Assembly (NCBI GenBank): GCA_900618795.1
Contig: UYJD01000010.1
Span: 966,068 to 1,030,067, forward strand
Source of the DNA: Cyanodermella asteris
Taxonomy: Eukaryota > Ascomycota > Lecanoromycetes > Ostropales > Stictidaceae
Direction of reading: 5' to 3'
Length of the DNA stretch: 64,000 bases
A program made the position numbers and the translations under genes. Shown here one piece after another: positions 31,711 through 64,000 of this stretch. The notes under the pieces are model-generated. The model was not told the DNA's origin, searched no databases, and saw only the letters and a program-made list of their open reading frames with translations. Position 1 is the first letter of the stretch. Every line of letters begins with the position of its first letter.

Positions 31711-32206
31711 GGCGCCTGGCGCAGCCTCTGGAGATGATGAGTCACCAGAGCGACTGTTGTTGATGAAACAAGGTGCTTGGTGCTGGCGGGTAGGCTCCGC
31801 TGGGACGGGATGCTGAGCGCGCCGAGCGTGAGCGGTTCGCGTTTAGCCTCGGATCTTAAATGCTACCCAGAAAGGACTAGCTTGACCCAGCGCTCACTCC
31901 AACATTCGTCCTCAATTTGGGTCAGCTAAACGTGCCGCACCAATACTTGGATACAATGATCCCATTGCCTGCGTTATTCACCTTCTGATCAAGGATGACT
32001 ACTACCTTCATGTCAACATTCACGAGACTCACTGGCAACACGTATCCTCATCCTCGATTGTTACTGATATGCGACCGTCATTCATTCAAAGTTATTCGCT
32101 GATCGTGACCTCGTCAAGCAATCTTATCATATAGCTAACGCCTTGAAAGGCCTGACGTATGCCGTGGTGGAGCCCTGCCCTAATCACGATATAACACAGC
32201 TTCCCC
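31711..32206. other. Intergenic between Smc5 and P450
   Basis: Holds the Smc5 promoter and the 3' region of the P450 gene. I see no coding frame of note. Confidence 0.4.
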
Positions 32207-33797
32207 CTATCTCTTCTCATTGATGACAACTCTTGGGGTCACCATCAGCGGGCCCTTGACAGGCAATCCATACACCTTCTGCTTCGACCAATTTTTGCTC
32301 TCTTCACACAGCTCCAGATCAAAGTTCCAAAGCACATTTGCCAAGATGAGTCTCATCTCATGGTACGCAAGGTTCTTGCCTATGCAGTTCCTCGGGCCGA
32401 AGCTGAAGGGCTGCAAGACGTCTCTCGCATCGTTTGCGAACGGCCCCGAGTTTTGGTTCTCGGGTAGCCACCGCTCAGGTAGGAATTCGTGGGGCTTATA
32501 CCAGTTCCTGGGCGATCGGTACGCAGCCCAGTGAGTTACAGTGACAATGGTGTTCTCCGGCACGAACTTGTCGGTGATCATGCGTCCACCAGCGGGCACT
32601 GTCCGAGCCTGTCCAAGAGGTGTGGGAGGATACATGCGCAGACCTTCGCGAAGGCAGGCCCAAAGATATGGTAGGCTCATCAAATTGTCGATGTCAATAT
32701 CTTCCACAGAAGTGAAAGCGTTGCGTATCTCGGCAGTAAGTTTGCTATACTTGTCAGGGTTGTTCAGAAGTAAGTTTGTGAGACCACTGAGCAATGTGGC
32801 CGTTGTCTCACTTCCTGCGACCATGAGAGTCATGCCCATAGCGTGCGATTCCTTGAGCGATAACGTGCCGTTCTCCTTGCCCTGGTTGCGCATGATGTAC
32901 TTCCAGAAGTCTGGTCTCTCGGTCTCCTTCGCCATTCGCTTATCAACTTGCTGCGTGCTGTAGTTGATATGAGTTGTGATAGGTTCGAACACCGACGCAG
33001 GAAGACACTTCTTCAGGACGTAACCAAGAGCTGGAAAGAATTTGGTGATGACAGAGAACCTGGATGCAATATGGATGCCGTTGTTGATGGCAAAGATCCA
33101 AGGAACCCACTCGCCCTGCTGTAGCATTCCAAAGGATTCGCCGAAGGACAGATCTGCGATGATATCGAAGGTGGTGAAATTGTACCACTTGGTCAGATCA
33201 ATCTTGCCACCCCCAGGCATCATGGCGACGTCACGAATCCTGTCAATCAACAACTGCACATAAGTGTTCAAGATCGGCTGCTGTTCACGGAGGGCCTTGT
33301 CAGAAAGAGCATGCGACACGAGACGGCGGGCGCGAGAGTGATCGGCGTCGTTCATCAGGATAATGCTGTCTTTGCCACCGATGAAAGAAATCTCAACCGC
33401 CTGGTCTTTTGGAATGTCACCCCATCCATTGTGTTTGTGACCAAAGATGTCCTTCCAGGCCAAAGGATCCGTATACGAAAGTTGCTCAGGGACGTATCGA
33501 ACAATGTCGCCATATGTTTCGTGAAGCTCGCTCATCCACGTATGGTGGCTTCCGAAGAATCGGTGATAGGAGATCGGCAAAGGTGTTGCTCGCGCCCAGA
33601 ATGGGCCGGGATAGTTCTTCAGCGGATGAAAATAAACATTGTAGACAATGCCAAAGACGATTGAGGCAAGGTAGACCTAACCGAGGTTGGTCAGTGAGCG
33701 GGAAACAGAAGCCGGGCCATCTTCGACATACAGCAAAAGCAGCACCGACAAGCAATGGAAGGTGCTCCGATAGGTGAAAAGTATCCGTGACGGGCAT
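32207..33797 (-). CDS. Cytochrome P450 monooxygenase, 511 aa
   Basis: Two exons, 33732-33797 and 32207-33676, joined by a 55-nt phase 0 intron with a GTATGT donor. The start is ATG 33797; the frame extends upstream but has no earlier ATG. An N-terminal hydrophobic anchor (residues about 12-35) is followed by a Pro-rich hinge (HPLKNYPGPFW). The I-helix AGSETT, the ExxR motif (EGLR) and the heme loop FSFGPRNCIG (Cys about 453) are all intact. It resembles the CYP65-type fungal P450s (isotrichodermin hydroxylase-like) used in secondary metabolism; that subfamily is from memory. It sits 11 kb from the type III PKS cluster, so it may or may not serve it. Confidence 0.92.
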
Positions 33798-36754: not shown

Positions 36755-36809
36755 ACCACTGTACTCAGATGTCACAAGAAAAAATGATTCTTGAAATGGA
36801 AACCAAAAA

Positions 36810-37897: not shown

Positions 37898-38415
37898 NNN
37901 NNNNNNNNNNNNNNNNNNNNNNNNNNNNNNNNNNNNNNNNNNNNNNNNNNNNNNNNNNNNNNNNNNNNNNNNNNNNNNNNNNNNNNNNNNNNNNNNNNNN
38001 NNNNNNNNNNNNNNNNNNNNNNNNNNNNNNNNNNNNNNNNNNNNNNNNNNNNNNNNNNNNNNNNNNNNNNNNNNNNNNNNNNNNNNNNNNNNNNNNNNNN
38101 NNNNNNNNNNNNNNNNNNNNNNNNNNNNNNNNNNNNNNNNNNNNNNNNNNNNNNNNNNNNNNNNNNNNNNNNNNNNNNNNNNNNNNNNNNNNNNNNNNNN
38201 NNNNNNNNNNNNNNNNNNNNNNNNNNNNNNNNNNNNNNNNNNNNNNNNNNNNNNNNNNNNNNNNNNNNNNNNNNNNNNNNNNNNNNNNNNNNNNNNNNNN
38301 NNNNNNNNNNNNNNNNNNNNNNNNNNNNNNNNNNNNNNNNNNNNNNNNNNNNNNNNNNNNNNNNNNNNNNNNNNNNNNNNNNNNNNNNNNNNNNNNNNNN
38401 NNNNNNNNNNNNNNN
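37898..38415. other. Assembly gap (518 N)
   Basis: An unbroken run of N. Open frames spanning it are artefacts. It hides the 5' part of the SAT4-type pseudogene. Confidence 0.99.
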
Positions 38416-43195: not shown

Positions 43196-43624
43196 TTCCG
43201 ACTTGCTACCCTGTTTGACCGACGACGGCGCAGTCTGTCTGGAGAAGAACTGTAACTGCACAGGTCCAGCGAACCAGCATGGCTTGGTGCTAGCGGAGCC
43301 TCGTATCAGCGGGTCCAGGCATACATCCCAGCATCTGCAACCTCTTCTCGGCTCGGTTCAAACCTTCGGTGAGTCGATTAGGAAACTATGAGACTTTGTG
43401 TATCAAGATGCCCACCCGAATTTGCATATATGCTAGCGTTCTGCTGTGTCCAAGGTATATGTAGTTGATTCAAGACTTCACGTCTCGTTTTTATAACCGA
43501 CATTTTCACCTTCAGGCAGCCCCATTTCGATAGGTTGATGTTGCTGGTCACTCGTTTCTCCTTCTCTTCTTCCCCAAGGTCACACTTCCTTCCACCCTTT
43601 CCTTTGCTCTTCTCGGCCACAGCA

Positions 43625-44742
43625 ATGCGGTCGGCAACGTTTCCCAAGCTCGCCGTGCTGGCCACGGCGGCTCAGTCCTTCTTTTCTCTTGCCGAAGCCG
43701 TCGACTGGACAAACGCAGATACGGCAGCCCAAGTCCTCATCAATCAATACTGGAACGAGTCGACCGGCCTGTTCGGCGGGCTCTGGTGGAACTCGGCAGC
43801 CGCCCTGACTCACCTGGCCGACCACCACGCTCATCGTCCCAACAACGTCACGCCCACGGTTCCGAGACCTGTTCACCAACCACGTTCAAGGCGTCCGGGG
43901 GCCAAAAACTTCCTCAACGACTACTACGACGAAGAGGGCTGGTGGGCACTCGCCTGGATCGTGCCGCCAGCATCTGGACCGACATGAAGGGGCGGCTGGC
44001 ACAACGGCACCGGTTCGTGCGGCGGCGGCATCTGGTGGGACAAGCAGCACACCGGTCCGGGGGTGTATCGAGAACGAGCTGTCCACGTCCGTCTCGGCGC
44101 GCTTCGCCAACAGGATCCCCCGACGACAGAGCCGAGTAACGTCTACTGGAGCCGAGCAGACGTGGCAGTGGTTCGCCGGGGTCGGACATTGCTCAACGTC
44201 CACGGCGGCGTCGTCGTGACCGACGGCTACGACGTCGTCAAGACCTGTAAGCCGGGGGAACACGCAGTTCACATACTCTCGGGGCGTCATCGTCGTCGGG
44301 GCCCTCCTCGAACTCGACGGCGCGGCTTACAAAGCCGGTGTACCTGCCCAACGCCACCACCATCGCCGATGCCGCGCTCGAGTCCGGGACGGTTCAAAGA
44401 TGACGAGGGCATCTTCGCGGAGCCCGCCTGGTCGTGGAGCAACGATACCATGCAGTTCAAGGGCGTCGAGTGCGGAACCTCAACTTGCTGCAACGGCACG
44501 CGCCCAAACAGAGCCATGTCAACTTTGCCGTCGAGAACGGGCGGAGCGTCTGGGATAGCAGGTTCGCCGATGGCCAGTTTGGTCCGAGCTGGGATGTGGC
44601 GAATGGTGGACAGTCGCCGTTTGCTTCGAGCCATTCGTCGGGTATGGCTGCGTTGACGGCGGCTGCGGCGATGCAGGAGTCGATCAATGCGCCGGATCCG
44701 ATCACTAGAAGGTCGGCGACGATGAGGTTCGAGAAGCGCTAG
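43625..44742 (+). pseudogene. GH76 alpha-1,6-mannanase (Dcw1/Dfg5-type) pseudogene
   Basis: The start MRSATFPKLAVLA gives a plausible signal peptide ending at AEAVDW. GH76 segments then appear in the right order: NESTGLFGGLWWNSAAAL, FLNDYYDEEGWWALAWI (the Asp-Asp-like catalytic area), SIWTDMKG, CGGGIWWDK, ENELSTSVSARFANRIP, TWQWFAGVG, NVHGGVVVTDGYD and a QFKGVE stretch. They lie in all three plus-strand frames, with at least five frame changes between 43970 and 44500, too many and too close to be introns. Functional homologues are GPI-anchored wall enzymes that cross-link GPI proteins to glucan. Poor local sequencing is a less likely alternative. Confidence 0.7.
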
Positions 44743-45438: not shown

Positions 45439-46725
45439 TCACGTTCGTGGTCTCCTCAGGATCAACATTGTTATGTCAACGTTATTGCCGAAGCCGCAGC
45501 TCACAATAAACTCCCGCTCCATAGGCATGTTTCTTCGAACATCGAGTACCTTCAGCAGGGTGGGGCCTGCACTGTTGCCCCAGTTCTCATACGTTGTCAC
45601 GGTGGCCTGAGCACGGTCGCGGGTTATCTCCATGGACTTTAGTATGCGGTCGAAGATGCCCAGGCCGCCAGGATGTAGATCCCAGTCAAAATCATCTGGG
45701 GCACGACAGACCTTGCCAGTGCTGTCGATCAGTGGAGGATTCGATCGGATCATGCTGAAGAATAGCTCGCGTACCGAATCTGCCATTATCTGGGGAAGTC
45801 GCGCCGATATGGTCGATACGGCACCTGGACATGGTTAGCATTCGGCCACTAGATCTACACTTGCGCGTCCTACAACGTACCAATCGAGGTGGGCATTAGT
45901 TGAAGCTCGTGCAGAGTGTTGGGCACGGTGTAATTCATCCATTGTTCGATTTCGAACAGATTGCGTGTGTTCTCGGGCTTGCTGAGGCCGATCTCGTTGG
46001 TAATGATCCCAGCGGTAGCCGCATCGCTGAATAAGGTCAATCCAATCGGGAAATGACCCTTGTTGAGCTGCTCCAATTCTGCGCGGAAACCAAGAGAGTT
46101 CAGATCGCAAGCAAAAACCAATATACGTGCAGGTCGTCCTTTGCAAGTGGCGGACATGGCAAGCTCGTATGCCGTGCGGAACAGAGCTGCTCCACCAGCG
46201 CAACCGACACCCGAGAGAAGTGTTCGGCTGGTGCTGGGACGTAGTCCTAGCCTTTGCGCAACGTATGCGTCGATGCCTGGATGGCATTGTACGCTACATG
46301 TTGCGGCTAGTAGGTGAGTGATGTCGGCAGGGCTGCCTCCCCAGTCGGCAATGGCACCTCGACATGCTCGCTCACTCAAGGGAAGACCATGCTCTAGCCA
46401 TATCGAAGTGAGTTCTTCGACCTTGTATGGCTCTGGACGATGGTAAAAGGGATGGTCGTGATTGAGGACGATAGGCCGAGCTTTGATACCTGTCCGCTTG
46501 TTGACTGCTCGGAGTTTGGCTAACCTGTACAGATCAAGTTAACTCACTATTCGAAAGGTCGCAGAAGGGGTGACGTTACTGTTGATCATTCTCGACCGCG
46601 GTTTGGGGAAGAACGTGGTTAAGGAAGTCTTCATCGACAGTGGAATCAGGATAAGCCGCATGCAAACCACGAACGAAGACGCCGGTGCCAAGGGTAGGCT
46701 GCAGGGTCGAGTGAAAGAGACCCAT
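45439..46725 (-). CDS. Type III polyketide synthase, 391 aa
   Basis: Three exons, 46580-46725, 45881-46524 and 45439-45824; introns of 55 and 56 nt (GTAACG and GTACGT donors, CAG acceptors). The 391 residues fit the chalcone-synthase-like family. The catalytic triad is intact: Cys157 in GVGCAGGAAL, His314 in DWDLHPGG and Asn347 in NWGNSAG, with the usual 33-residue His-Asn spacing. The enzyme condenses malonyl-CoA on an acyl-CoA starter without a carrier protein to give pyrones or resorcinols; the starter cannot be told from sequence. ATG 46725 is the first in frame. It is transcribed away from a flavin monooxygenase 750 bp upstream. It is the core enzyme of the proposed cluster. Confidence 0.95.
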
Positions 46726-47475
46726 CTCGAGGAGTAGTGGTGTGTACCAACGGGGTCCGATTTGAAGAGACACCGAGTGGCTAAACAAGGGGCAAGATGC
46801 CGGGCCTGTGTCTACTACTTTACCTGTGTTTCATTCGAAAGTAGTGTGCGGTGCAGACTATTGTTCTTTGCAACGATGAGCAATAGCAACCCTTGCAGCG
46901 GGACGGGAATTGGAAATTAGCAATGCATCGGCCGCCTTCGCTCTACCTGTCACACCGGCCATGACGTGGGACAATAAGACTGATGGAGGACAACTTAAGT
47001 CAGACGGCCCTCGAAACAGGTCGGCGCAGCGATGGGTCGCATTTGCACGCGTGGCCGGAGAGCAATGGCCAGCGGAGGGTGGTGAAGGAACAAGCTGATC
47101 GCAGCGACCGGCTGTGCGGATGGGGTTAAGAATCCCGGCGCAGCTCAGGTGACGCGAGTGGAATAAACTCCACGGATTACGGTAACGAACAGGAAAAGAA
47201 CAAAGTAATACGGTATCAGATCGTCGACGTCGTACGAAATCGATCGTGCCACCAACGTTGCGACCGCTTGTCGAGCCCATGGCCACCACGGCCAGCGTGC
47301 AGTTAGCTGAAGGGGCTTCCTCTTTATCCTTCGCTCTACTGCTTCACTATGCTTTGTGCTTTCAAATCTGCCTTTATGCGTCTGTTTCTACTAATGAACT
47401 CCCAACCCGCTGTGCGGCTCTAACCACCAAGATCACGCCCGCAAGTTGCACCCACAACTTTCGCCACGGTACAGT
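46726..47475. promoter_or_regulatory. Shared divergent promoter, PKS and FMO
   Basis: 750 bp between the start codons of the type III PKS (-) and the flavin monooxygenase (+), with no open frame worth calling. A palindrome CGTCGACG sits at 47222-47229. Common regulation of the pair is inferred from the arrangement only. Confidence 0.45.
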
Positions 47476-49426
47476 ATGCGCATCGCCGTCATTGGAGCGG
47501 GTGCCTCCGGCCTGGCGATCCTCAAGCACCTCTTCCACGACAGTCGAGACTTCCACACCGGTGCAATTGAGGTTTTCCTGTTCGAAAAGGAATCTGACAT
47601 CGGCGGCACATTTCGTTATCGAACTTACGAAGAAGGCGAGGTCTGTGCTCAAAGTTCATCCACCCGTCGATCAATCTGTCTCACATGAACTGCAGCTGGT
47701 CTCGTCCCGATTTCTAACATCCTTCTCCGACTTCAGAATCCCCGACGACCTCCCCGACTTCATAACAACTGACGAGTACTGTCGCTACTTGGCGGACTAT
47801 GCTACCCACTTCAAGCTCTGGTCGAGGATCAAGCTTGAGACCACAGTCCACCGCATCAGGCGGAGTGAGAAGGGTGGCCATGTGGTTACGTTCTCCAAGA
47901 ACGGATCTTCCAGCGAAGAGCAATGGCATTGTGATGCTATTGCCGTCTGCTCGGGCTTGAACGTTACGCCAAATGTCCCCGTCATACCAGGAATCGAACA
48001 CGTTCCAGAGGCCTTTCATTCGTCCGCCTTCAAGAAACGAGAACAGTTCGGCCGCGACAAGAACGTCATGATCCTCGGAGCCGGTGAGACGTCGATGGAT
48101 ATTGGCTATCTCGCAGTAACCGCACCCACACGCTCGGTGACATTGTGCCATCGGGGCGGCTGGAAGAATGAACCAAAGCAACTTCCGGACCCTATCTGGT
48201 TCGGCAATAAAAAGGCTTGGAACGAGGACGTTGAGCACAATGGTGTTTCGCCCCCAACCGATACGGGCTTCGCAAGCCTCTTTGACACCGCATATCAGCA
48301 TCCCATGTTGGAGGCTTCTCGATGGCCCTGGGAGTATTACGACAAGTTTACATGGTTCTACTCATATCTCACGACCGGAGTTGGTACGGGGATAGATCAG
48401 TGGGCTGGCGAAGTCCAGGGCGAACGTCATCACGCCAGATATGCTGTCGCCAACAAGTCTAATCGAACCTGTCCATACATTTCCGTCCCATACAAACCCA
48501 AGGTACCCGGCCTGATCGAACGCATACGAGCCTTCACATGCAGCCTCCCACAGCCGGACCTCAAAGGCCGCCAAATCGACCTCGCGCCCTGGCCCTCGCA
48601 CATCGACTCAAACGGCATCGTGCATTTCATCGACAACGGACGCGTCGAAGCCCAGATGATGAAGAATGCCAAAGTCAAGCCCGACATTGTCGTCTTCGCC
48701 ACCGGCTACACCCAAGTCTTCCCCTTCCTCGACGAAACCTACCCGACCATCTTCGACGCCGACATCCGAAGAATCTGGAAGACGGGAGTCGAGGACGTGG
48801 CCTTCATCGGCTTCGCAAGGCCCGCGTTCGGTGCCATTCCGCCACTGGCAGAGCTCCAGGCGCAGCTGTGGATCGCAAGGCTCTTCAACAGGCTCCCGCG
48901 ACCGATCAGGTATCGAGAGAACTTCCTGTTGAAGCACGATGCGGGCCGGCGTCTCGACTACATTGTCGACCACGAGACGTACGCCTACACGCTGGCACAG
49001 GACATGGGCGCCGCGCCATCGATGCTACAGGTCCTCTCCTTCGGTCCGAAAGTCTTCCTGACCTGGGCCCTGGGCCCGAACTTCAATACCAAATTCCGCC
49101 TCGTCGGGCCCTGGAAATGGGACGGTGCCGCGGACGTCATGCGGGGAGAGCAGTGGCGGGTCATCAGGAGGAGGAAGGGCTTCATCATCTGGTCGTGCAT
49201 GTCGCTCATCCCGTTGACGCTCTTTGGCACGCTGAGCTTGTGTTACTACGTGTACTACGGCATCAAGGATACTCTGCTCTGGCCGCTGTCGGTGCTGGGT
49301 CTGAGATCGCAGAATCACGTGAAACAGGCCCGCCTGGTGGATCCGATCGGAGCAAAGAGGGCCAAGGCGGAGCGTGATGCGAGAGGACCGGAGAAAGTTA
49401 AGGTGCAGAAGGAGAACTTGACTTAG
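47476..49426 (+). CDS. Flavin-containing monooxygenase, 631 aa
   Basis: Two exons, 47476-47640 and 47696-49426, joined in phase 0 across a 55-nt intron with an unusual GTCTGT donor and CTGCAG acceptor; the junction EEGE/LVSSRFLTSFSDFR fits the FMO family. The FAD site GAGASGL is at residues 7-13, the NADPH site GAGETSMD in the middle, and FATGY marks the FMO class. A hydrophobic segment near the C-terminus (WSCMSLIPLTLFGTLSLCYY) suggests a membrane anchor. FMOs insert one oxygen into N, S or carbonyl carbon centres. I see no clear Baeyer-Villiger fingerprint. Divergent from the type III PKS, it is likely its tailoring oxygenase. Confidence 0.92.
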
Positions 49427-50153
49427 GAGGCACCGGCCCAGGACACTATGATTGATGCACGAGAGAGCTCTTACGACTTACACGAGAGAACTCCCATGAA
49501 ATACACGATATTATTTGATGACGAATGTCAACATGAATGTTAATACTTAATGAGATTTGGAAATTTTTTACGACGATGATTCGACGAGACCGATGCGCGG
49601 GTAAGAGTGAATGGCCCACTTCACGACAATACACGATAGCATGATCTAAAGTATCATTACACCGTAAAGAAGCAACTCTTTTCCTTTGTGTCGAGCAATA
49701 ATCAGGGCTTGAGCGACAACCGATTTCCGGGAACCGGGCTGCGGACCGCGGCCGCATGGGACTGGCCAGCGATACGGAAAGGTAAAAATGTTGCCAGCAC
49801 TTGGCACGTGAAGCAGTCGAACTCCACATACATACAGGTGGCATCATTCTCGAGCGGCGGTCGAGCATCAAAGCATCAAAGAATCAAAAAAAAAAAAGGC
49901 TCTTTTCGCTCAGCTGAAGAGTGGGGGCCACTACTGGGTCGCTTCATCGGCAGTCGGAGATTCTTATGCATGCCCGACACCAACACGAGGCAAGTGCGCG
50001 CCGCACTTACGTTGTGCATGTCAGCTTGACAAATCCATTCATGCAGCATAAGAATGTGCGCTGCGTTCCAATATCATACAGTTCGTGCGCCGTCAAGACC
50101 ATATATGTCCCAATTCATTATCCGGACAAGCTTTCTTTTTGTTTGTTACATCC
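49427..50153. other. Convergent intergenic region
   Basis: Between the 3' ends of the FMO and the SAT4-type gene. An A tract lies at about 49888-49898. No gene seen. Confidence 0.4.
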
Positions 50154-51563
50154 TCAATAGCTAACTGAGATGTTCACCGTCTTCCGGATCCCCTCCGCAG
50201 GCGGCTCCTCGAAATTGTGAGTGGACGCACTGCTTTGCTTCATGGACTCGATATCGTCGGGTCCGTGTCGCTCGCTTCCATCCGTGAGCTCGATTCGATC
50301 GGATCGGCCGCCGAGCGAGCGGCCCCGGGGCCCTGTCAGCGTGGTCCAGGTGGGCCTCCATCGGCCGTAGGAATGATGTTTACCCGCCGTGTCGTAGGGC
50401 GACTTTGTGCTGCGATCTGTTCTATTGAGCAGAGGTCGGAGTACTGGAATCGTGGCCGCGACGATGAGGGTGCAATTCTCGATGCTGTCAAGTGTGGTTA
50501 GCTTGAGTGGCCAATGTGACCGCGCTTCGCTTTTGACATACGAGAACCAGAATTGTAGGCCCCAGAGGATATCTATATCGGTCCGTTAGCTCACACGAAC
50601 AGACTGCCTTGAGGATATGTGGATACGTACGCGTCAGATCCATAGGATCGCTGTCAATCTCTTTGATGGAGACTGTCTTCATGATCGAGAACGCCAGTGC
50701 ACTGTGCAGGTCAGTTGCGCTCATCCACTAACAGGCGAGGCACTCACAAAATTCCCAGACCCATGGTGATGCAGATAGAGATCTTAACAGAAGTCTTCAT
50801 GTTCAGTTTCCAGATGATAGTCGCGGGGAAGATAGCCAGAGCTAAATCAGCAAACGCGTTGAGGGCTGAAGGACGGTCAGTTACCGTGATATGTCGACGG
50901 GTTCGAAACTGAACGAGCCAGACTTACCGCCTTGTGAAAAGCCAATGTGCTCCTGAATAGACGGCGGCAGACACACGGCCCCGGGAGCAGCGTGGTCCCA
51001 CAGTGCATATGTAGGCCGGCACTGCAGCAGAATGTACAGAGCCGTCGCCGAGTTGATGCCAACCTGGATGAAGTAGAAGAATCGAAGAATCCACAGCTGA
51101 ATCTTCTGATTGGGGGCGAGGAGCATTACGAGCGTCCGAATGAACGAGATTCTGGCAAAAGCGGACGCCATGATACCAAAAACTTGCCCGAGGAAGGCCC
51201 ATTTCACGGCATCGATCGCATTCTGTGGAGGGAGCTCTGTTGCGCGCAACCCAAATCCGTTGTTGACTGCGAGTTGATTGAGGATGAAAGCCACCATGTT
51301 CGTTATCTGCAGGGTCGATGAGGTCAGCCCGTCGGCCCGTACGTGCATCGACATGCATCTGCAGGCACGGAACTCACGAAAGCGACGAGCATCCAGAAGT
51401 CGTCCCAAGCGACCTTTCGGATGAGGTGTACTCTGGTGTAGTATCTTGCTACCACCAGGATCGCTGTAATGGCGAATTCAGCCCACATGGCCTCCACCAA
51501 CTTCATGCCCTGCTCGTTCTCCGACATGGGCGGCAGCATCGTTGAGGGGTTCGGGTTCTCCAT
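50154..51563 (-). CDS. SAT4-family seven-helix (rhodopsin-domain) membrane protein, 371 aa
   Basis: Six exons: 51378-51563, 50928-51306, 50748-50865, 50631-50701, 50542-50572 and 50154-50484. All borders are GT..AG and phases agree; exon 5 is only 31 nt. Residues about 25-280 contain seven hydrophobic helices with family marks VVARYYTRVHLIRKVAWDDFWML, ALNAFADLALAIFP, IKISICITMGLGIF-like and CTLIVAATIPVLRPL. The last 90 residues are a soluble, charged tail. SAT4/Pth11-type proteins are fungal-specific, receptor-like; ligands are mostly unknown. Genes of this family often occur inside secondary-metabolite clusters. ATG 51563 is the first true ATG. An intact relative of the relic at 36.8-37.9 kb. 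Confidence 0.85.
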
Positions 51564-52968
51564 GGTGGCGTTGAGACCGTGGCTCCTCCGCACGGGTAGG
51601 GAGTCGTGCGGTGCGACGCCTCGATGAGGGAGTGGGAAAGACTCGCTGAGCTATGATTCACAGAAGGAGAAAAGACACCTGGCGATGCCTGCGATGCAAT
51701 AGAACGACGCCTACACGTTGCGCGGGAGGAGAATCTGGAGGACCAGCCCCGATGTTATTTGCCATGAGTGCGTCGTAGAGAAACAATTCAGGAGCTAGAG
51801 AAAGCAGGATTGCGCCATGGAACCAGACCAGACCAGCAGAGCAGTCTGCCAGACCCTGGTTACAGACATGGTGGCGTGCGAGGCGTGGTGTGTTACCAAG
51901 ATAGCACTAGCATGAAGATTGGCAACGGCTCAGTCCGCTAATGGGCCTCATGGCAAGCCGAGTGTTGTAGAGCGCAGATAGGAAACGGCGATCTGCAGAA
52001 ATGCGAAGAGGTGTATGTAACATCGAACGAATGAGATTATTTGGTCGGTCGGTCGGTCGTCTTACCTCAGGGTCGCATCATGGGCGGAGGCGGGCACACC
52101 TGTTCGTCAAGCCTGTCATCTCGGTCCATCAGGGCCGAGGGAATTTCCAGCTGGTCTAATAACGCTCAGGGCTCTTGCGGTGTGAAAGATGCTGGTTGAA
52201 AGCAGAATGCTGAGCTGGTCAGCGCTGCTCGAAACCAGCGCGTGGTATTATCTATTTGCAGAGAGCATGCAGTAAGTGACAAGGGGTGAAACCTGCAGCA
52301 CGCTGATCAAAGTCCGAAGGCTCGCATCTCGTGCGACCAGAGCAACGCGCGATCTTCCAACGGCATTCTGGATACTGGAGGAGTGCATGGCAGAATGAAC
52401 CTGCTGATCTTGCCATGCAGAGATTGTTGTTATCGGAGCTTCACAGACATGGTTCTTGGATCCTCCCGGGATGGCGTTGACATGACCATGTTCGGCAGGA
52501 CTCGGCAGTGGTCGCCAGTTCACGGTGCAACACACACCACTGCCCCCTGCGCAAGATGCTGCTGAGGCATCGCTGTATAGCGACGATGTCTACATGCACC
52601 TCCTTGGTGCTTTCTCATGAGCGTGAGTGTGTCCCCTCAGAACCTCGTCTAACAGGGGTAAAGGAGGCAAGGTCGATGATCGACAGACCAGCACGACGCA
52701 TTCGATTCCTCCAACCTTCCTTGCAACGTGGATACCATGCATAAGAACCTTTTGTCCAGGGAGTTCGGCATCTGTGCTAGCCGACTTTTCTCACAACGCT
52801 CAGTACTAGCTCGAGTCATGCGGTGCGATCCGGATCTGCTCATAGTCACGTTTGGACAAGGTATCACAGCCTGACACACGCCACATTCTGACAAGGGGCA
52901 GTTCAAATGCGTGCTCGTGATCACCAAGGCACGCTGCATTCTTGCTCTTACCTGCCCGGCTGTTCTCT
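51564..52968. other. Intergenic upstream of the SAT4-type gene
   Basis: 1.4 kb without a supported gene; contains a short GGTC tandem near 52046-52060. Both flanking genes are on the minus strand. Confidence 0.45.
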
Positions 52969-54237
52969 CTATGCGATTACTGCCTCAATTATGCTGTATT
53001 CCAGATCTGGGTCGTACCTGTATACTTCCTTAAACGCGAGCCCCTCGGAGGCCAACATGCTCTTCCAGTGCGCGAGAGTACGCTCAGTGGAGTTGAACAT
53101 GGCCATCATTGTGACATCCAACTGCATCGCGAACCTCGACGCACCAGTCGGCGGGATCACGAGCTCATCGATCCACAAGAAGGAATTCGGCGTCATGGCC
53201 TCCTTGATGTGCTTTAGAACCAATTTGGCCTCGGCGTCTGGTAGGTCGTGAAGGCATTGTCTGATGTAGTAAATTCTCGCACCTGGCAAGCCTTGTCAGT
53301 AAATGCTAAACATGCGTTGTGCGATTACAGACCTTTGACTCGATTCTCAGTGTAGAAATCCTGCACCATCATCTCGATGTCGTCGTATTTCGGTGCCGTC
53401 TCCAAAGTTGGAGGCAAATCTTGGTTGATGACACGTCCTGGAAAGTGCTTCGAAGTTGCCTTGCGAAACTCGGCGCACTGCCAGCCATGCCCACCGCCGA
53501 CATCGACAAAGAGGGGCGCTTCCTTGCCGGCATCTTTCAACCTGCTGGCCAGTGGCGCTACCGATGTCCACGGGACTGGGCTGTGGAAGGCTTTCAGGGA
53601 AGGGTGAAAGTATTTGAGCGTCTCCGTCTGTTGCTGGAACCAGATGAAAAATTGCTGGTCGGTCTGGTTGGCGCGATGAAAAGAGGTGTCTTTTGTCTGA
53701 TCCATCGGGTTCTTGTAGCCTTTGGATTTGAGAAAATCCGGCACTTCATGGAAGGGCGGATTGAGAACGTTGTAACCGAACATGATATTGCCCTTGCCCG
53801 CGTCGGATGCAAGAATTCGCGTGGTCTCGTTGGCAGCCCACAATCCCTCGCCGGACTCGTTGATTGTGAAAGTCGAGGCCAGGCTTCGCAGGATACGATC
53901 TGGAGACTGTCAGCAAGTTTGAAGCTGTAGCTGTAGCTGTAGCTAGCGTGGTGGCCGTACCTGTCAATGCCGCTTCTGCTCCACATTTGCTCGCAATCTC
54001 CTCCGTCTTCAAGGAGCCCTCTGCACTGGCCAGTATGGCAAAGATGTCGAGATCTGTAGCCGCTCTGACTATGGCTTGCTCGGTGCCCTGGTAGCCAATC
54101 TGTTGCATGATCTGTCTGGGCGTCGCTATAGACCGGGCGAGCTTCTGGAGCTGCGTACTAAGCCTGTAGCGCAGTGAAGAGTCGGCGGTGCTGGCAGCCA
54201 GCTGCAGCTGGTCGAGAAGGGTTTCAATCGCCGACAT
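52969..54237 (-). CDS. O-methyltransferase A, 385 aa
   Basis: Three exons, 53961-54237, 53333-53899 and 52969-53282; both introns are phase 1, and the second has a GTCTGT donor. The N-terminal winged-helix dimerisation region (residues about 1-140) is followed by the SAM-binding fold, with motif I LFVDVGGGHG near 223. The catalytic His lies in CLHDLPD (about residue 292). It belongs to the plant-COMT-like fungal O-methyltransferases, which methylate phenolic hydroxyls, for example on polyketides. It is divergent from a second methyltransferase 1.7 kb away, with which it shares both intron positions. The first intron contains a short GTAGCT tandem. Confidence 0.92.
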
Positions 54238-55951
54238 GGTGTTTGTGATATGGTGTCTCGGTTGCAAGGTGAAGGTGCTAGATAGGAAATCAGGTGGGAG
54301 CGCTGTGAGGGAGAGCTCTAGCTATTGCTGCACGCCTTGTTCATGTATCTACAAGCTCACGGCCAGCAGATGGTCGCTGACTGGGTCGCTTGATAGAGGG
54401 GTTTGTCGGGGCTGCGCTTCCGAACAAGAGTCAAGCGTGTCTCAGACTCTCAACCTCTACATGGTGATCTCCAGCCTTGCGTGGCGGCATCAGCTATCAG
54501 GGTCTGCACGGTGGGGAGTCGAATGACAGCAGTGGCTGCACCGGCCTTTGCGAATGTGGCTAGCTCGACTTAATTTACCATCGTGGTCACGAGGGTGTTC
54601 AGCACAAATTCGCTACATCCGGAAAGTGAGACAATGAACTCTGCAAAGTACGGCGTCTCGTAATTTACAGGCGGTCGAAAAGAATACCCCGCCAAGCTCG
54701 GCCAGCAGCTCGACCTGAGAATCGAGGAACAGAAACGGAGTCGAACCAACAGAGCTGAATCCTACTTTACTTCTGAACCCCGCTTGTGGGACATTCTGCC
54801 AAGTCCGGTAGTCGACGTCCACAGAGTGTATGTGCCTAGGTAAAGGAAGCATGGAGGATGACAGGCTACCTACCTACCTACCTCAGCTACTTCCAAATCA
54901 CTGCCAGCGAATGTGGCCGCCAACATGGTCGCAAGATCCAGCGGCGAGAATTGCTGACAGCATTAATGCGTCTCTTCCGAGTAGGCCGTAGGGTACACAT
55001 GGCCACTAATTTTCAAACAGTAACATGCATTGTAGACGAAAGCTATCGAACCCTGCGGGCCTGTATGTGCCCGCATTCAGCTCAGCGTGCAAATTGTGTG
55101 GCGCCATCTACGCACGATCCCATCTCTTACCAACTTACACCATCCCTCGCCAGGATTTCCCTCATCAGGCCGATGCAGAGAGTGTGAGCAAACAGCAGCC
55201 TAGGACGCGGCATTTAACTTTTGGGTCCAACCTAGCGGCAGCCTGCCTGGCTCGCAGTCTTGGGAGACGATACTGTGTTTTGAGATGGCCATGTGCGTAG
55301 ACCTGCACCAAGATCTGCGATGTCGTGGCGGACCAAAGGCGGTCACGGAAAGGTTACAATACCGAAGACGGATCGACAGGCTGTCGCCAACTTTGGTCGT
55401 TCGTCGGTCTGGCGTGAGGTCGAATTGAAACCCTTCTGTGCTACGATGACCGAACATGCGATCATCGACGCGTACCATCCAGAGACGTTTTCGCTTCGTC
55501 CAGTAGTGAAATACAAGACAGTCGGAATTACAGCCGTTCCCCTGCATTCCAAGGAATGCAACCAGTCAGATGTTCGACGTGTCTAGCCAATCTCACCCAG
55601 GATTGGTTGTATCCGCGTAACACAAATGATGCAGCGCTTGCCTGAGCTTATCCACAGCGAAGCGAAGATTCGATCCAACGCCGATTCGTATCTGGAAGCG
55701 TGGTAGAAGCGAAGTTGTAGATATTCCAAGCTCTATAGCCTGCCGAACCGTGAAGTCTTATCTGGGTAAATGTCTGAGCTGTGAATTCAGCTCAAGCAAG
55801 CCCCACGACTGCGATCCAAGGATCGATCCCCCGACCTAGACCAACCCCTGTCGCAGTGTAGCCCCTTCCATGCCTTCTATAAACTGCTGAAGTCTTGTTG
55901 TGAGACGCATTGATCGTTGCCCAAGCGTTTATCCGGTGTCAGAATATCACC
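54238..55951. promoter_or_regulatory. Divergent region between the two methyltransferases
   Basis: 1.7 kb between the two start codons. No coding frame with support. It contains a (TACC)n microsatellite near 54868-54882. It probably holds both promoters. Confidence 0.4.
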
Positions 55952-57493
55952 ATGTCAGCAGACACGTCGTCCCAATGGCCGCAGGAGCTTCTGAAACAGC
56001 TCTCCACAGTCTTGCAGGGCAAGGATGTTGACGATGCTCGACAGGAAGCTCTACGGCTCTCGACTCAGCTGACAGCCAGCTTGAGAAGGCCCCACGAAGT
56101 CGCCTTCGAGACATGCTTCCTGGTACGTGCAATCGCTCTTCAGGTTGAGGCTGTTGTACATGGGGCTGATCGTTAAACTATCAGCCGGCATACAGTGCCG
56201 CGTGCAGGGCGAGCATACACCTCGGTCTCTTTGAAGCTATTGTGCAAAGCCCCGGTCCCATCACAGCAGCGGAACTTGCCAACCAGACTGGAAGCGAACA
56301 CTTACTGGTCGGTGAGTGGATCCGATCATGACCGAGATCAAGCAGAAGCTCACCTCAGGTGAATTAGTCCGTCTGCTGCGCGTTGTGACAGGACTTGGGC
56401 TTGTCCAGGAGGTCGCAGCGGAGACGTACGCTGCTCTACCAGCGACGCACGCGCTGACGGCCCCCATGGTGCGAGCTGCCCACCAGCATTTGTACGTTCA
56501 ATCACCTTTACTCCCGAGTCCTGACATGATCACTTGCTTAGCTTCCGCTGACGGGGCAGCGAGCGGCCCGCTCTGTGCATGAAGATGTGAGTGTGAACTC
56601 GCACAAGCAGCGCTGACCATTCGTCGCAGCTGGGATCAAGGGGCGGCGTCACTGCTTCACCTCCCCGCCTATTTGAATGATCACGGCCCAAGGTGCCCGA
56701 CGGACGCCAGAGAGGGTCTTTTCCAATATGCATACGAGACCAAATTGGACGCGTTCTCCTACTGGCAGTCGCGGCAGCCGCCGCGCAAGGCGTTTGACAA
56801 CTTCAATTTTCTCATGACATGCGTGCGTGGGACAGAGCCTGCCTGGCTCTCTTGGTTTCCGATTCGGGAGCGTATACTCGATGGTGCGAATTTGGACAGT
56901 GCGATCCTTGTCGACGTTGGTGGTGGCCGAGGCCACGATGTGATTGCCTTCAAGCGCAAAGCAGGTGACAGTATGCCCGAGAGTGGACGCCTTGTATTGC
57001 AAGACCTGCCAGCTATACTGGAGGAAGCTCTCGAGGCGGACAGGGAAGCAATCGAGCGGGTGCCGTACGATTTCTTCACTCCGCAGGTTGTCAAAGGTGA
57101 GTCTCCGTCTCCTGCATAAGGGGCACGCCTGGAAGGCCAAGCGACTGACGTTTGGACGCAGGCGCACGTGCATACTATCTGGCTCACATTCTGCACGATT
57201 GGTCCGACCAGGCGTGTGGAAGCATCCTGCGCAATGCCAAAATAGCCATGGAGCCAGGATACTCGCGACTATTGCTCTATGAGTTCATTTTGCCGGATGC
57301 GGGCTGCTCCCTGATCCAGGCGGGCTTTGACCTTCAGATGATGGGAATGCATGCCGGCATGGAGAGGACGGAATCGCAGTGGACAAGGCTGCTCGAAAGA
57401 GAGGGATTCAAGATCATCAAGTTCTGGACAGGTGCCGATCAAGGTATGGAGGGCATCATCGAAGCGGAATTAGCTGCTGATGTGCTGGCATGA
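55952..57493 (+). CDS. O-methyltransferase B, 418 aa
   Basis: Six exons: 55952-56122, 56185-56311, 56359-56491, 56560-56586 (27 nt), 56630-57096 and 57162-57493. All borders are GT..AG with CTGAC-like branch points before the short exon. The 27-nt exon avoids an in-frame stop that a longer version would carry and leads into KIWDQGAASL. Motif I ILVDVGGGRG is near residue 247, and the catalytic His is in ILHDWSD (about 319). Same family as methyltransferase A but only distantly similar. Two introns match A in position and phase, suggesting an old inverted duplication. It is likely to methylate a hydroxyl of the cluster product. Confidence 0.87.
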
Positions 57494-58890
57494 TGGAGAT
57501 CCCGGCCGATGTTTCCAGGAACCCAGGGCTGGACGAAAAGAAATGCCAGCACACAATCCCTCAGCCAATGACAGTACGAGGCTGGTAATTTACGCCTCCG
57601 GACCACTCGCCATGTTCGTCGTAGCGCTGCACTTCAGGGCTTTGCACTCGGCACGCTCACTCCGAAGCTGGCGAGGATGGCAAAGGAGAAGGCCTTGCAC
57701 CACGCTCCTACCCTGCGAGCAGCATTCTTGAGTAGATGAAGGCAAAGCTCGAGACGGAGCAGAGCCTCGGTCTGCTGTACGATAGGAGCCAAGCCGATAA
57801 CGGATGACTAATTGCTGGCGCACGCGGGAGATAGCAGTGGCGTATCGATCGCGCACGGCGGGCAGATCGGGAAGGAGCGGACTGCGTCAAAAGACCCCAC
57901 AGCAGCAGTTGCGACCCACCCGCGCAACCACAAGTCCTTTCAGAACCCCACAGGCGGGCCCGAGCGCCGCACACCAACCACTATTGTTCCACTGCCCGTG
58001 TCACAAGGTAGTTACTGCAAGGAGGAGGACGGCCGAAGTCATGCTTCCATTTCAATGTCTTTGCAAAGCGTCTCTCCCTGCAGCTGAAACGAGTGCTGGC
58101 GAGACGACATGTGTCGCTGTTTGTTTATCTTATCGCTGCGTAAGAGCCGTGTTTCAGAGACAAGGAAGTGGGGGCACTGGTTGCCGGGCCGTTGTTCGAA
58201 TAGCGGCTCGAAGGCCACATGGCTTGCTCGACACGCGTGCTGTGACGTCTGTCAGCCCGCCACGCCGTTGGGAGCGCGCCCCGACACTCTGTGACAGTCT
58301 TGCCACTAAGTCGATTGTCGACAAAGTCGCATGTACCGGCCGAGACTCCAGCCTGCAGCTTTCGTACAGTAGCTTGTGTTTCGAAGATGGTATGTGCACG
58401 GCAGCATGGCATCGACACTCCGGGTGCAAGTAAGCTAACCCATGTCTCATGGCAGCGGGCCTGCCGCTTCCGATCGGTAACGACGGCCTCGTCCAAGGCG
58501 CACTCGTGCCCCCTATCAGAGACATGAGCGCTGCGGCTGCGGCTGCGGCTGAGGCGGTGATGGTGGTGACGGTGACGGCGGTGGTGGGCCCCCGGGAAGT
58601 GAGCTGTGAGTCCGCCGTTCCAACTGGACGAGCCTTTCAAACGCTTTTTCGCCCTCCGGCCAGTGCGACGACCAAAGCGCCTTCCCATTATTATTATTTC
58701 CACCCGCCTGAACCACTCGGCAGCGCGCCTTCCTTCGCCATCCTTCCCATCCTAGCCCCCAGTTTCACATTCACTTCTCTGATCTCTGCAGACACCTCTC
58801 CTTCCAACCTCCTCGGCTCTTGCTTGCGCTTCCATCCCATCCGAACTCATCTCCTTCATACGCCCTTTGCTCAAGTTGCTTCTCTGCACA
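57494..58890. other. Intergenic upstream of the MFS exporter
   Basis: 1.4 kb without a convincing gene. The stretch 58525-58590 has GCGGCT and GGTGAC short tandems that create long false frames. The last 180 bp are pyrimidine-rich and look like the exporter's leader. Confidence 0.45.
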
Positions 58891-60418
58891 ATGGCAACCC
58901 CAGCTCTCGCTGCCGACCCCTCCTCCGATCCGGTCAACGTCCAAGCTCACGAAGAAGCCCGCCGAGGCGCTGGCTCTCGGCGCGACAGCGAGTCCACCAA
59001 GCATGGCCAGAATGGAAGCATCGCAGAACCACCCAGCGAGAAGCCAGCACCACCTCCACCGGGTCCCATGGATCCTAGCCAGTTTCCCGACGGAGGGGTC
59101 GCTGCTTGGTTGACCGTTGCTGGAGGATGGTGTTGCGCATTCTGTTCTTTTGGATGGGTCAACGGTAAGCTTCACCAGCAGCCCGTCAGTTGCGCCGACT
59201 CGAGACTGACCAAGTCGTTCCAGCAATTGGTGTTTTCCAGCAGTATTATCAGACCGACCTATTGAGGAGCTACGACTCGTCTGACATTGCATGGATCGTC
59301 TCACTTCAGACATTCTTCATGTTTCTGGGCGCGCCAGTCGTCGGCAAAATATATGACAACTCGGGACCTCGATATTTGCTTGCTGTCGGAACATTCTTGC
59401 ACGTCTTTGGCTTAATGGTACGTTCAAAGCCAGCGGAAATTTCCTGGATTGCCACTAATCCGTTCAGATGCTGTCGCTCAGCACCGAGTACTATCAGATC
59501 ATTCTGTCCCAGGGCATTTGCTCCCCAATTGGTGCTTCGTGTGTCCTCTATCCCGCCATGTCAACTGTCGTGACCTGGTTCCACAAAAGAAGGGCGTTGG
59601 CACTCGGAATCATGGTATCCGGCTCCAGTCTGGGCGGCGTCATTTTTCCCATCATGCTCCAGCGACTGATCAATTCGAACGTCGGCTTCCCGTGGGCCGT
59701 TCGTGCCAGCGCATTCCTGATTCTCGGACTGCTTGCCTTCGCCACGGCCGTGACCACGTCGCGAATTCCTCCTTCTCCCAAGCCGTGGTCTCCCATGGAT
59801 TTCATCCGACCATTCGCACAGCCCACATTCGCCATGGTTTGCATTGCCAACTTCTTCGGTTTCCTCGGCTTGTTCATTCCACTCAACTACATCACTCTAT
59901 CCTTCACCCACTACAGCTCGGACATGAACCTCTCGCTGTATATCCTCTCAATCCTGAACGCTGGCTCCATCATTGGGCGAATTGTGCCCGGCTGGGCCGC
60001 CGACAAGCTTGGGAAGTTCAATGTCCAAATTGTCATGTGTGCCCTGAGCTTCATTGTCAACTTGGCTCTCTGGCTGCCCTCGCGTGGAGGAGCTCCCATC
60101 ATCGTCTTCGCCGTCTTGTACGGTATCGCGTCCGGCGCCTTCGTCTCCCTGGCGCCAGCCCTCATTGCACAGGTCACCACCGACATGAAGCAGATTGGCG
60201 TCCGGGTAGGCACCATGTTTGCGACTGTCAGCATTGCGAGCCTGATCGGAAACCCGATTGCCGGCGCCCTTTACGGCGATGCCGTCGGCAACGGCAAAGA
60301 AAACGACAACCCATTCGAATATCTGCAAATCTTCGCCGGTGTCGCCATTGCCATTTCGACCATTCTGTTTGGGGTCACCAAGAGCATGGTACCTGGTAAA
60401 TTGCTCAAAAACTTCTAA
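58891..60418 (+). CDS. Monocarboxylate-type MFS transporter, 472 aa
   Basis: Three exons, 58891-59164, 59224-59417 and 59468-60418; introns of phase 1 and phase 0. A 70-residue hydrophilic N-terminus (with a PPPPGP run) precedes FPDGGVAAWLTVAGGW, the hallmark start of fungal MCT-like (MCH/Mch5-type) carriers. About 12 helices follow, with YDNSGPRYLLAVG and WFHKRRALALGIMVSGSSLGG. The MCH family moves riboflavin, carboxylates or secondary metabolites across the plasma membrane. Its place at the edge of the polyketide cluster suggests export of the product. The stop is at 60416-60418. Confidence 0.92.
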
Positions 60419-61394
60419 TCTTAAAAGAAATGCTTGAAAACGAATCATTGGTAATGTGATGGACGATATGGCATGACTGAAAACTTTTACGGTCGGAACG
60501 CAATAAAAGTATTTGCACGCTGGATGTGGCATTGAGACGACTTTCAATGCATTCTGATATTAGCGAAGGAAAGCCAACGGAGGCATTCTGCACGGCGTCT
60601 ATGGGCTTTGGATTTTGGATACCCTCTCACGAAACGTAATACAATGCCTCAAATGAACACAAGCTCCGCTTGTTCTCTTGCGATGCCGTGACTCTGGTTT
60701 ACATGTGGTTGTCGAATGGACATTTGAAACACGTTCAACAAGCTGTGGCGGCAGTACGAGATTGTCAACAGTATTAATGAACATGTCGTTGTGCGCGCTG
60801 ATGGACAAAGTGTTGATTTCTTTCTGCACCGGTGTGATTGATTGCGCCAGTCGGAATCTTCCCCACGACACATCAGGAACTGGCCGAGCTGCAGGCGTTC
60901 TCCCGAACCGAACAGAGCGCTTTGCCCGAGACTCATTGACGACGTCGATCATGTTACTCTATCCAGTTCTTAGCTAGGGCCGTGACTGGCGCATCGCAAC
61001 AGGACGTGACCGGTCAAGATCATGGTTGTGTTTCGGGGAGCTTCTGTTCTGCGGACTGGCCGTGCATGACACAGTTTAGACTACCGCTGAGAGTACTGCT
61101 ACGAGTACTGCCAAAGGGAGCGAAGCCGCTGGCACGGAGAGTGTCTAAGGCGGTACTGCAGCAAATGGAGCAAGTCTAAACGTTGTGGAGAGCGTCCTTT
61201 CTGAACCACCACAGCACCTCATCGCTCCACCCTGCGCTCTTGGCCTTCAGCTCGCTCTCTTCGCTGTCAGCTTCGAACTCGGGGCCCCAGAAAAGCTCGT
61301 CAGGCACGGGGTAGAGATAGTTCAGGTCAATATTGCCTGCTGCGTCGTCACCAAAAAGCCGATTAACAATGTTGACATTGCGGTCGGATGTCCT
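60419..61394. other. Intergenic at the right border of the cluster
   Basis: Convergent 3' ends with no supported gene. AT-rich just after the exporter. Confidence 0.4.
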
Positions 61395-64000
61395 CTAGCA
61401 AGATTTCGGAATTGCCAGTGCCCATGATCTGAAAATCCTTGCCTCCTGACGTCGTCCATTCGGCCCATCTCTATCTTGCAGCGCTTTTCGGAGACAAAGA
61501 GCATCCCGCAGGGTCTGAATCAGCTCTGGGTCCATGCAGGACGTGTAGGTACGAGTGAGAGCCGTCAGATGGGACAGCAGCCGCAGAATTTCACACACCT
61601 CGTCCCTTTCGGCGTCAAATCCTCGCCAAAATGTGTCCAAGTGAAAATAACGCATGTTTCCCACCTCCGAGGAGTTTTCCGGAACCTGTGGAATACCTCC
61701 ACTATAGTTGGAGCCTTGGACGTGTGCTGCAGCGTTACAAATGGGTGAAAGATGAGCAAACAGACCAAGCTCACTTTCAACCTCGTTCGTGACCATGAGC
61801 GGCAACGAGAGCCGCGCAGCGACGCCACCGCCATAATCAAAATTGGGTCTTGACAGATGTACGCGGCCGGTGAGGTAGTCTCGATAGCCACCCCAATGCT
61901 GGCTATGTGTCCGATCATTGACGACAAGCTTGATGAATTCTTCGAATGCGTCCTGGGCAACGAGTCCCAATTGCAAGGTGAGATCCACAGATCCCTCGTA
62001 AGAGCCTCCTCCCAGTCCATCAAAATATCGAGGCCTATGAGGCCATAATTCCTGAACAGGGTATCTGCCATACTGCAAAGGGAGACCATTGAGCAAACTG
62101 TTCAGTCTCTGAATCTCTGCACAGCGAATGAAGCTTTCGAAGGGTCTCATATGAAAATCCCAGCTTGGGTTGAAAAAATTATATTCATCAATCGTTGCGA
62201 GGTGGGCGAACGGATCCCGAGCAGACACGTTCAAACCGTCGTCCACGTCGACCAAAAGGTCCGCAACTCTCGCAGAGACAGAAAGGCTCCTGGCGTCCCG
62301 CAGTCGACATAAGTATGTAGTATCCGGAGGAGCTGGGCAAATTAGCGTCGGGTTCTTCTAGAAGTAGTTGCACATCCACGGTGAGTAGTAACCAGAAATT
62401 TGTTCGCCATTGTTTGCAAACACTTCTCCAATTTACGTGTAGACGCATAGCCAGCGTATTTGCAAGCAGATTCGCTGAACTAGGCATGAGAATGGCTCTA
62501 TGGGCCAATTTGAATACCCAATTGAGCGTACAGACAAGAACACGCACGGTGACATTTACAACGAGACTTCGTGCAGTGCATCAAGGATACTATCACGAGT
62601 CCATCTTGCTTGTTCATGGCTCATGCTGCATAGAAACGAATCTGAATGGTTTTCTTACCTGGGGAGGAAGCAGCCGGATCGAAAGCCTCTGCTAATGGAG
62701 TAGGAAGACCCAACCAGCGGTTTGCGAGGTCTCTGGCCTGGAATGCGATCCGTCGAAGCGTTTTGGCACCTGGCTCTGTTGCTCCATCCGGTCTTCGATA
62801 AGTTGTGAGAGAGGGATAAAGATCTGCAAGAGACTGTCGCGGATTGTTGAAGGCCCAATCTGGCGAACCCGACAGACCCTTTGGATCCAAAGAGTCATCC
62901 TCCAAGAAAGTGGTGTACGAAGTAAGTATGCGAACACCGAATCCTGCGCATGACAGTTTGAGAATCTCTCTCTCCTTCAGCATTGGAATGTCCAGGATCG
63001 GCTGCCCGAGAACGAGCCTGGTCGTCATCATTGAGTATCCCGTCTCGATGGCTCGGGCACAACGTGGTAGCATCAGAGCCCTAGCACCATCAAAGCCTAT
63101 GGCACATGGATCTAGTGAAATGTCCAGCAATGTAGCCACAGGATTGCGCCAGACTTTCAAGGGAATTTGCACCTCCAGTCCATTCGGGTCCTCTGCAGCT
63201 ATGGTAACACGACTGGCAGTCCTCACGACAGTAGTTGAGCCTCGTCCGTCTGCAATTGCGTTCAGCTGCCAACAGTTTACGATGGCTCGAAGCTTGGCAG
63301 TCGCGTTCGGAGCATCGAGTCCATGTATGCGGAGCTCGAGAGGATATTTGCCTTGGTTCGGAGCACCGCAAAACGCGCCGAGAACATAGACTCCTGTCAA
63401 AATCACGTTGCACCAGCTCAAGCCTCGAAGTGGATCCGAACCAATTCATAAGTTCTGGATGAGTGACCGATCAGAGCCACGCATATGAAGAACATCCGGA
63501 CGTTTCTCATCCAGAAGGGTCATCTGATTTGCGGGAATGGGCTGGCGAGGGCACGAGACATCCGGATCGAGCCTCGTCCGACCATGAACCTCGGAGATAT
63601 CTCCTTCACGAGCGAGAATAGCCTTGAAGTCGTCGATGGTGACCAAGTGGATTCCAGTGGTGTTGTCGGTGTGCCTTATCTCGTCTTCGGTGCTCAACAC
63701 GGCCTCGTCAATGTCACGGAGTTGTGGAACACTTCTCCTGAAATCTTGGAATTTGCTGCTCTTACTACGACTCAGGCAGCTGACTGTGGCGCGAAGGGTC
63801 GTGTAGGGCATCGACCGAAACACATGCTTTGCTAGGGGCTCTTTGTCAACGATCCATTCGAGGAGCGCGGCCAGGTCCGCCTCGAAATCGGGAGACTAAA
63901 TTGGTCAACACTCATACCCATCGTAAGACTGATCGTCTATGATCCGCACACAATGGGAGCCTCACTCACTTCGCGCAGAGCATTATGCAATCTCCTGACA
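61395..64000 (-). CDS. Unknown multi-exon gene, 5' end cut by the window
   Basis: Coding blocks on the minus strand: up to the edge (ends near 63971, RRLHNALRE); 63897 to about 63460 (SPDFEADLAALLEW..DVLHM); about 63384-62659 (VYVLGAFCGAPNQG..FDPAASS); and 62332-61395 (PPDTTYLCRLRD..AIPKSC stop). The splice GTGAGT..TAG between the first two is good. The join at 63.4 kb uses a weak GTGGCT donor and is uncertain; the alternative is two adjacent genes, since the third block has no ATG at its start. The intron 62333-62658 is long for this window. I recognise no domain. The blocks are rich in Leu, Arg and Asp, soluble, and carry no obvious signal peptide. Confidence 0.5.

Follow-up and report, generated by a model that had tools for sequence, protein, structure and literature searches.

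The DNA analysed here, a stretch of 64,000 nucleotides from the ascomycete Cyanodermella asteris that is referred to below as the window, carries between positions 45439 and 60418 six neighbouring genes, among them those for a type III polyketide synthase (PKS), a flavin monooxygenase (FMO) and two O-methyltransferases (OMT1 and OMT2). Judged from its sequence, this locus resembles a small set of genes, so far uncharacterised, for making a methylated polyketide with a plant-type core enzyme. The reading that we favour, with a probability of about 0.68, is that of a small secondary-metabolite cluster, a real pathway in which a PKS of fungal lineage, the FMO and the two OMTs form the core. Products are known for few of the type III PKS clusters of fungi, and this one, an orphan, would largely belong to a known kind; its notable feature is an accessory set like that of an unrelated locus with a bacterium-derived PKS, as described in the main text of PMC6985275. 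The features of the locus are the following:

45439..46725, minus strand: type III PKS, 391 amino acids (aa), exons 45439-45824, 45881-46524 and 46580-46725; PF00195/PF02797; best solved relative ORAS, 222 bits
46726..47475, no strand: divergent region between PKS and FMO, 750 bp, a possible shared promoter from the gene models; it has no 8-base word in common with the other three promoter regions tested
47476..49426, plus strand: FMO-like flavin monooxygenase, 631 aa, exons 47476-47640 and 47696-49426; PF00743
50154..51563, minus strand: fungal rhodopsin-domain (SAT4-type) membrane protein, 371 aa, six exons; PF20684
52969..54237, minus strand: OMT1, 385 aa, exons 52969-53282, 53333-53899 and 53961-54237; PF00891 and PF08100
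55952..57493, plus strand: OMT2, 406 aa, five exons; PF00891 and PF08100
58891..60418, plus strand: transporter of the major facilitator superfamily (MFS), monocarboxylate-transporter type, 472 aa, exons 58891-59164, 59224-59417 and 59468-60418; PF07690

The spliced models rebuilt from the DNA run, in all six genes, uninterrupted from ATG to stop, and GT...AG borders are present in 16 of the 16 introns (two in the PKS gene, one in FMO, five in the rhodopsin-domain gene, two in OMT1, four in OMT2, one of them of 138 bp, and two in MFS). Splice sites were picked by hand to preserve the expected family sequence, hence the structures are models rather than transcripts; for the two outer ends (45439 and 60418) we kept the coordinates of the initial annotation, which proved exact. 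A Pfam search with chosen proteins and chosen open frames of the window matched the six gene products, every one above the curated cut-off. The initial annotation had announced six intact genes in about 15 kb and had named them as PKS, FMO, SAT4-type protein, two O-methyltransferases and MFS; the open models and the Pfam matches bear out both the number and each of the identities. Its term "packed" is too strong, given that the five gaps between the genes measure 727-1714 bp, which we take to be an ordinary spacing for a filamentous fungus. Two gene pairs, PKS/FMO and OMT1/OMT2, are divergent. The DNA of the window is fungal-looking, with short GT-AG introns in the models and with SMC_N, ERCC4-domain and WD40/RING genes to the left of the locus, which we take to be SMC5, XPF and WDR59; these names are our own readings and not database calls.

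The core enzyme matched both halves of the chalcone/stilbene synthase family (PF00195 with 84.6 bits and PF02797 with 29.6 bits, the cut-off being 27 for each). Its catalytic triad, which had been described as intact, is indeed complete: Cys157, His314 and Asn347 are invariant in the alignment with ORAS, the 2'-oxoalkylresorcylic acid synthase of Neurospora crassa (PDB 3e1h, 3euo), and with CsyB of Aspergillus oryzae (PDB 3wxz), to which the PKS is 34% and 33% identical, respectively. Among the best 60 of the 99 solved sequences matched, the top relatives were ORAS (222 bits), CsyB (191 bits) and a type III PKS from Aspergillus thesauricus (178 bits), and chalcone synthases and the other solved entries followed below these fungal enzymes with at most 103 bits. 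In a tree of nine rows, the PKS, ORAS and CsyB form a group with a support of 100/100 that is separate from the six type III PKSs of bacteria; the bacterial rows came from named plasmids of the plasmid collection used for comparison (one of them, L005, is long, L002 is of unusual composition, and L006 is an unannotated open frame), and the ORAS and CsyB sequences were partial. The tree does not resolve the branching order among the three fungal rows, and the branch of the PKS (1.38, vs 0.63 and 0.79 for the other two) is long, which suggests a diverged fungal member. Identity to the six bacterial enzymes did not exceed 25.5% in alignments over 200 residues (a 20-residue piece reached 30%, with an E value of 7.8), and was at most 25.4% among the 30 listed of the 108 plasmid records with a match. 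Taken from these alignments and the tree, the PKS is of fungal lineage. An actinobacterial origin was rejected on the same identity values and the tree, in a comparison that contained no Mycobacterium or Nocardia enzyme. The C-terminal loop, for which GFGPG is the signature of type III PKSs, reads GFGNN in this enzyme, AFGPG in ORAS and AFGHG in CsyB, so that it is variable among the fungal enzymes.

Scans for relatives of the PKS with short peptide patterns, which are weak evidence, confirmed none of 31 stretches in prokaryote genome contigs with the single-protein pattern, none of 81 in the same contigs with the alignment-based pattern, and none of 41 in viral contigs with the latter. In two of the six bacterial plasmid loci (Paludisphaera and Psychrobacter), an annotated gene for an FAD-dependent oxidoreductase and the type III PKS gene share 4 bases; the overlap is at the start of the PKS gene in L001 (1-1401) and at its end in L002 (184-1554). 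A flavin enzyme adjoining a type III PKS therefore occurs in bacteria too.

The FMO matched PF00743 with 148.2 bits and carries two nucleotide-binding motifs, GAGASG and GAGETS. The solved proteins closest to it, ancestral flavin-containing monooxygenases with at most 128 bits, are too distant for the reaction to be read from them. Both O-methyltransferases include the catalytic and the dimerisation domains (PF00891 and PF08100, with 57.4 and 36.9 bits in OMT1, and 77.8 and 39.8 bits in OMT2), the glycine-rich motif that binds S-adenosylmethionine (VDVGGGHG in OMT1, VDVGGGRG in OMT2) and the histidine of the LHD motif (CLHDLPD and ILHDWSD, respectively), a residue with a known role in this family. 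The top solved relative of the two proteins is LepI, a pericyclase with a methyltransferase fold (174 bits for OMT1, followed by MpaG' with 152; 163 bits for OMT2, followed by MpaG' with 162 and OxaC with 131). LepI reads LRD at the position where the alignments show LHD in OMT1 and OMT2; given that the histidine is kept in both, they are probably true methyltransferases, and a LepI-like pericyclase role for OMT1, proposed by its best solved relative, is disfavoured. OMT1 and OMT2 are 28.8% identical, a value on which a recent duplication was rejected, and they may act on different positions.

Beyond the gene models, the families, the triad and the lineage of the PKS, we infer that the genes act jointly, and for such a pathway an order of reactions, a product and a direction of transport can be proposed. 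The PKS would load Cys157 with an acyl-CoA starter drawn from primary metabolism and extend this starter with malonyl-CoA to a tri- to pentaketide, and the chain would be released as a pyrone or a resorcinol-type ring. The FMO might then oxygenate the ring product, by ring hydroxylation or by a Baeyer-Villiger-like step; the two O-methyltransferases would methylate hydroxyls, and the transporter of monocarboxylate type could move the product or a precursor.

The nearest precedent for a PKS with an FMO and two OMTs, as far as the main text of PMC6985275 describes it, is a conserved locus of four Sordariomycetes (Dactylonectria estremocensis, D. macrodidyma, Ilyonectria robusta and Neonectria radicicola) in which a type III PKS is accompanied by two methyltransferases and a flavin monooxygenase. 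It is a predicted cluster with an orphan product; the accessory genes are of fungal origin, and the PKS shares 56-60% identity with enzymes of Mycobacterium, an actinobacterial acquisition having been inferred (PMC6985275). A PKS related to this one is found in Aspergillus brevijanus, where, as in Dactylonectria, it is situated downstream of an O-methyltransferase. The authors of that work call the Sordariomycete arrangement remarkable and leave open whether the PKS landed between genes already in place or these joined it after the transfer (PMC6985275). By gene name, the two loci agree in having two methyltransferases and a single flavin monooxygenase next to the PKS gene; the cores differ, the one there being bacterium-derived, whereas the one in C. 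asteris falls into the group of ORAS and CsyB and shares no more than 25.5% identity with any of the six bacterial enzymes. The accessory set here corresponds to two PF00891 proteins and one PF00743 protein; the main text of PMC6985275 gives no Pfam codes and names one gene as an O-methyltransferase, and for this reason the likeness stays a lead. A cluster of a fungal-lineage type III PKS with an FMO and two OMTs was not found in print in our searches of an open-access library.

This likeness raises the idea, which we regard as improbable, that the FMO and the two OMTs constitute a portable accessory set that fungi have combined on two or more occasions with type III PKS cores unrelated to each other, one of fungal lineage here and one of actinobacterial origin in the four Sordariomycetes; our estimate was lowered slightly because of the lack of Pfam codes in the main text of PMC6985275. 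Two histories could lead to such pairings: an older cluster may have exchanged its fungal core for a bacterial gene, or the same tailoring logic may have been put together on two separate occasions. If the idea holds, a similar backbone as its product would explain how a PKS of bacterial origin can function alongside eukaryotic enzymes, a question left open in PMC6985275. Should the accessory genes prove the same at both loci, their comparison would be a test of whether a bacterial core, acquired by horizontal transfer, is able to take the place of a fungal one in a working pathway, a point for which the authors of PMC6985275 call for experimental validation.

Other characterised fungal systems are alike in part. 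ORAS is the best solved relative, with the same triad and lineage; it differs in its 34% identity, in the loop (AFGPG vs GFGNN) and in its locus, which according to the main text of PMC6985275 has no obvious cluster. CsyB belongs to the same lineage, keeps the triad and has an MFS gene nearby; it differs in its 33% identity and in being apparently beside an MFS gene only, as described in the same text. In the soppiline cluster of Penicillium soppii a fungal type III PKS is also clustered with an oxygenase, although there a reducing PKS supplies the starter and the oxygenase is a cytochrome P450 (PMC6985275, main text). The DTACSS motif of type I PKSs, searched as an exact pattern, was not found in the 64-kb window.

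The extent of the cluster admits more than one alternative. A smaller cluster, composed of PKS and FMO or of these and the OMTs, with the rhodopsin-domain and MFS genes as bystanders, has a substantial though lesser claim. These two genes belong to families (PF20684 and PF07690) that are large and common in fungi, hence they may be chance neighbours. The rhodopsin-domain protein matched PF20684 with 125.6 bits over residues 39-283 (profile positions 1-237 of 237). The initial annotation had called it a SAT4-type receptor-like protein; the domain stands, and the receptor role does not follow from it, given that a domain match is silent on signalling. A search of an open-access library yielded no paper tying the SAT4 family to polyketide biosynthetic gene clusters. 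This gene may be a bystander; nonetheless, it sits inside the run, between FMO and OMT1. The MFS protein matched PF07690 with 105.2 bits, and its 13 solved matches comprise 12 monocarboxylate transporters and one MFS L-lactate transporter, the best being MCT10 (73 bits) and MCT8 (63 bits). The family assigned to it was correct; the label of exporter is a guess, since the nearest solved relatives are monocarboxylate transporters and the direction of transport is not readable from sequence. The published Sordariomycete locus, consisting of just the PKS, two methyltransferases and the flavin monooxygenase, favours a smaller unit; against it, the loci of type III PKSs often include an MFS gene (both in the main text of PMC6985275).

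A larger cluster, which we consider unlikely, would extend from a P450 gene (32.2 kb) or an alcohol dehydrogenase (ADH) gene (38.9 kb) to the MFS gene (60.4 kb), about 21-28 kb, and would be bounded on the left by the SMC-family housekeeping gene at 28198-31842, left of the P450 (SMC_N). Three intact models lie on that side:

32207..33797, minus strand: cytochrome P450, a possible further member, 511 aa, two exons; PF00067 with 243.5 bits, CYP3A7 with 120 bits
38924..40091, plus strand: zinc alcohol dehydrogenase, a possible further member, 351 aa, three exons; PF08240/PF00107
40738..42444, plus strand: second MFS transporter, a possible further member, 532 aa, three exons; PF07690/PF00083

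Because of these intact genes the left border of the cluster is open. In the survey of fungal type III PKS clades in the main text of PMC6985275, P450 and ADH_N domains appear in seven of eight clades and MFS in all eight, which favours their inclusion. For the second MFS protein, the NCBIfam search gave sub-cut-off matches only, to aromatic-acid and cation transporter models. Two interruptions speak against this extension: a stretch of 3.0 kb between the second MFS gene and the PKS, with a multiply frame-shifted gene, and one of 5.1 kb between the P450 and ADH genes, with pieces of a rhodopsin-like gene and a run of N.

The case for the favoured cluster as a functional unit must be weighed against several observations besides the possible chance presence of the MFS and rhodopsin-domain genes. 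Four promoter regions were compared, namely the whole PKS/FMO and OMT1/OMT2 gaps and, for the rhodopsin-domain and MFS genes, about 1 kb of upstream sequence. They have no word of 8, 9 or 10 bases in common, and the four 7-mers that they do share are at the shuffled level (mean of 3.38 in 100 shuffles). The zinc-cluster-type palindrome CGG-N10-CCG occurs in three of the four regions vs one of seven control regions, a weak signal from one of 13 spacings tried, and no single spacing among these 13 is present in all four; a convincing shared regulatory motif was not obtained from these regions. The absence of a visible regulator and of an acyl-CoA-forming enzyme, remarked on in the initial annotation, agrees with our motif search: six-frame, single-frame patterns, which motifs split by introns could escape, detected neither a Zn2Cys6 nor an AMP-ligase motif in the window. 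In addition, the G+C content at third codon positions of the PKS gene (0.564) lies below that of its five partners (0.631-0.715) and is near that of the WDR (0.563) and SMC5 (0.581) genes, and the inter-gene gaps of 0.7-1.7 kb are not tight. On the other side, the gene models and Pfam place a core enzyme and tailoring enzymes of matching type side by side, and the two divergent gene pairs and the parallel in print also favour a cluster. With the densities assumed for a fungal genome (about 40 FMO-like and about 30 Methyltransf_2 genes per 12,000 genes), rough arithmetic gives a chance of roughly 1e-5 for an FMO and two OMTs within five genes on either side of one PKS. A chance neighbourhood, with unrelated genes around a stand-alone PKS as at the ORAS locus, which has no obvious cluster according to the main text of PMC6985275, would fit the promoter, regulator, spacing and base-composition results, yet we hold it very unlikely given how improbable it is, on these assumed densities, for an FMO and a pair of Methyltransf_2 genes to lie no more than about 12 kb from the PKS, and given that the combination resembles the published one. 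Overall, the cluster proposed at the outset is sustained in its gene identities, its triad and its lack of a visible regulator or ligase, and loses the exporter and receptor roles, with its borders left open.

The same motif scan of the window returned one C2H2-like and five bZIP-like pattern matches. The frame-shifted gene left of the PKS (43620-44740, plus strand) is secreted-protein-like, and its apparent coding sequence switches frames repeatedly, owing either to decay of the gene or to sequencing errors; by eye we take it to resemble GH76 mannanases, although a Pfam search with three of its pieces gave no match. The pieces of a second rhodopsin-domain gene (36970-37900, minus strand) adjoin a run of 518 N (37898-38415) and lie about 12.7 kb from the intact one; two of the three matched PF20684 weakly, with 17.7 and 17.9 bits, below the cut-off of 27. 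Between the P450 and this second rhodopsin-like gene, about 3 kb (33800-36900) hold no convincing coding sequence, and two open frames at 36285-36751 have no Pfam match. On the right flank (61179-63895, minus strand) there are long open frames of up to 320 codons, perhaps of one multi-exon gene, and none of the three tested matched Pfam. Further to the left, an open frame of 1276 codons without a Pfam match at E 0.001 (13424-17254, minus strand) includes a Cys-rich stretch that, by eye, we take to be MYND-like.

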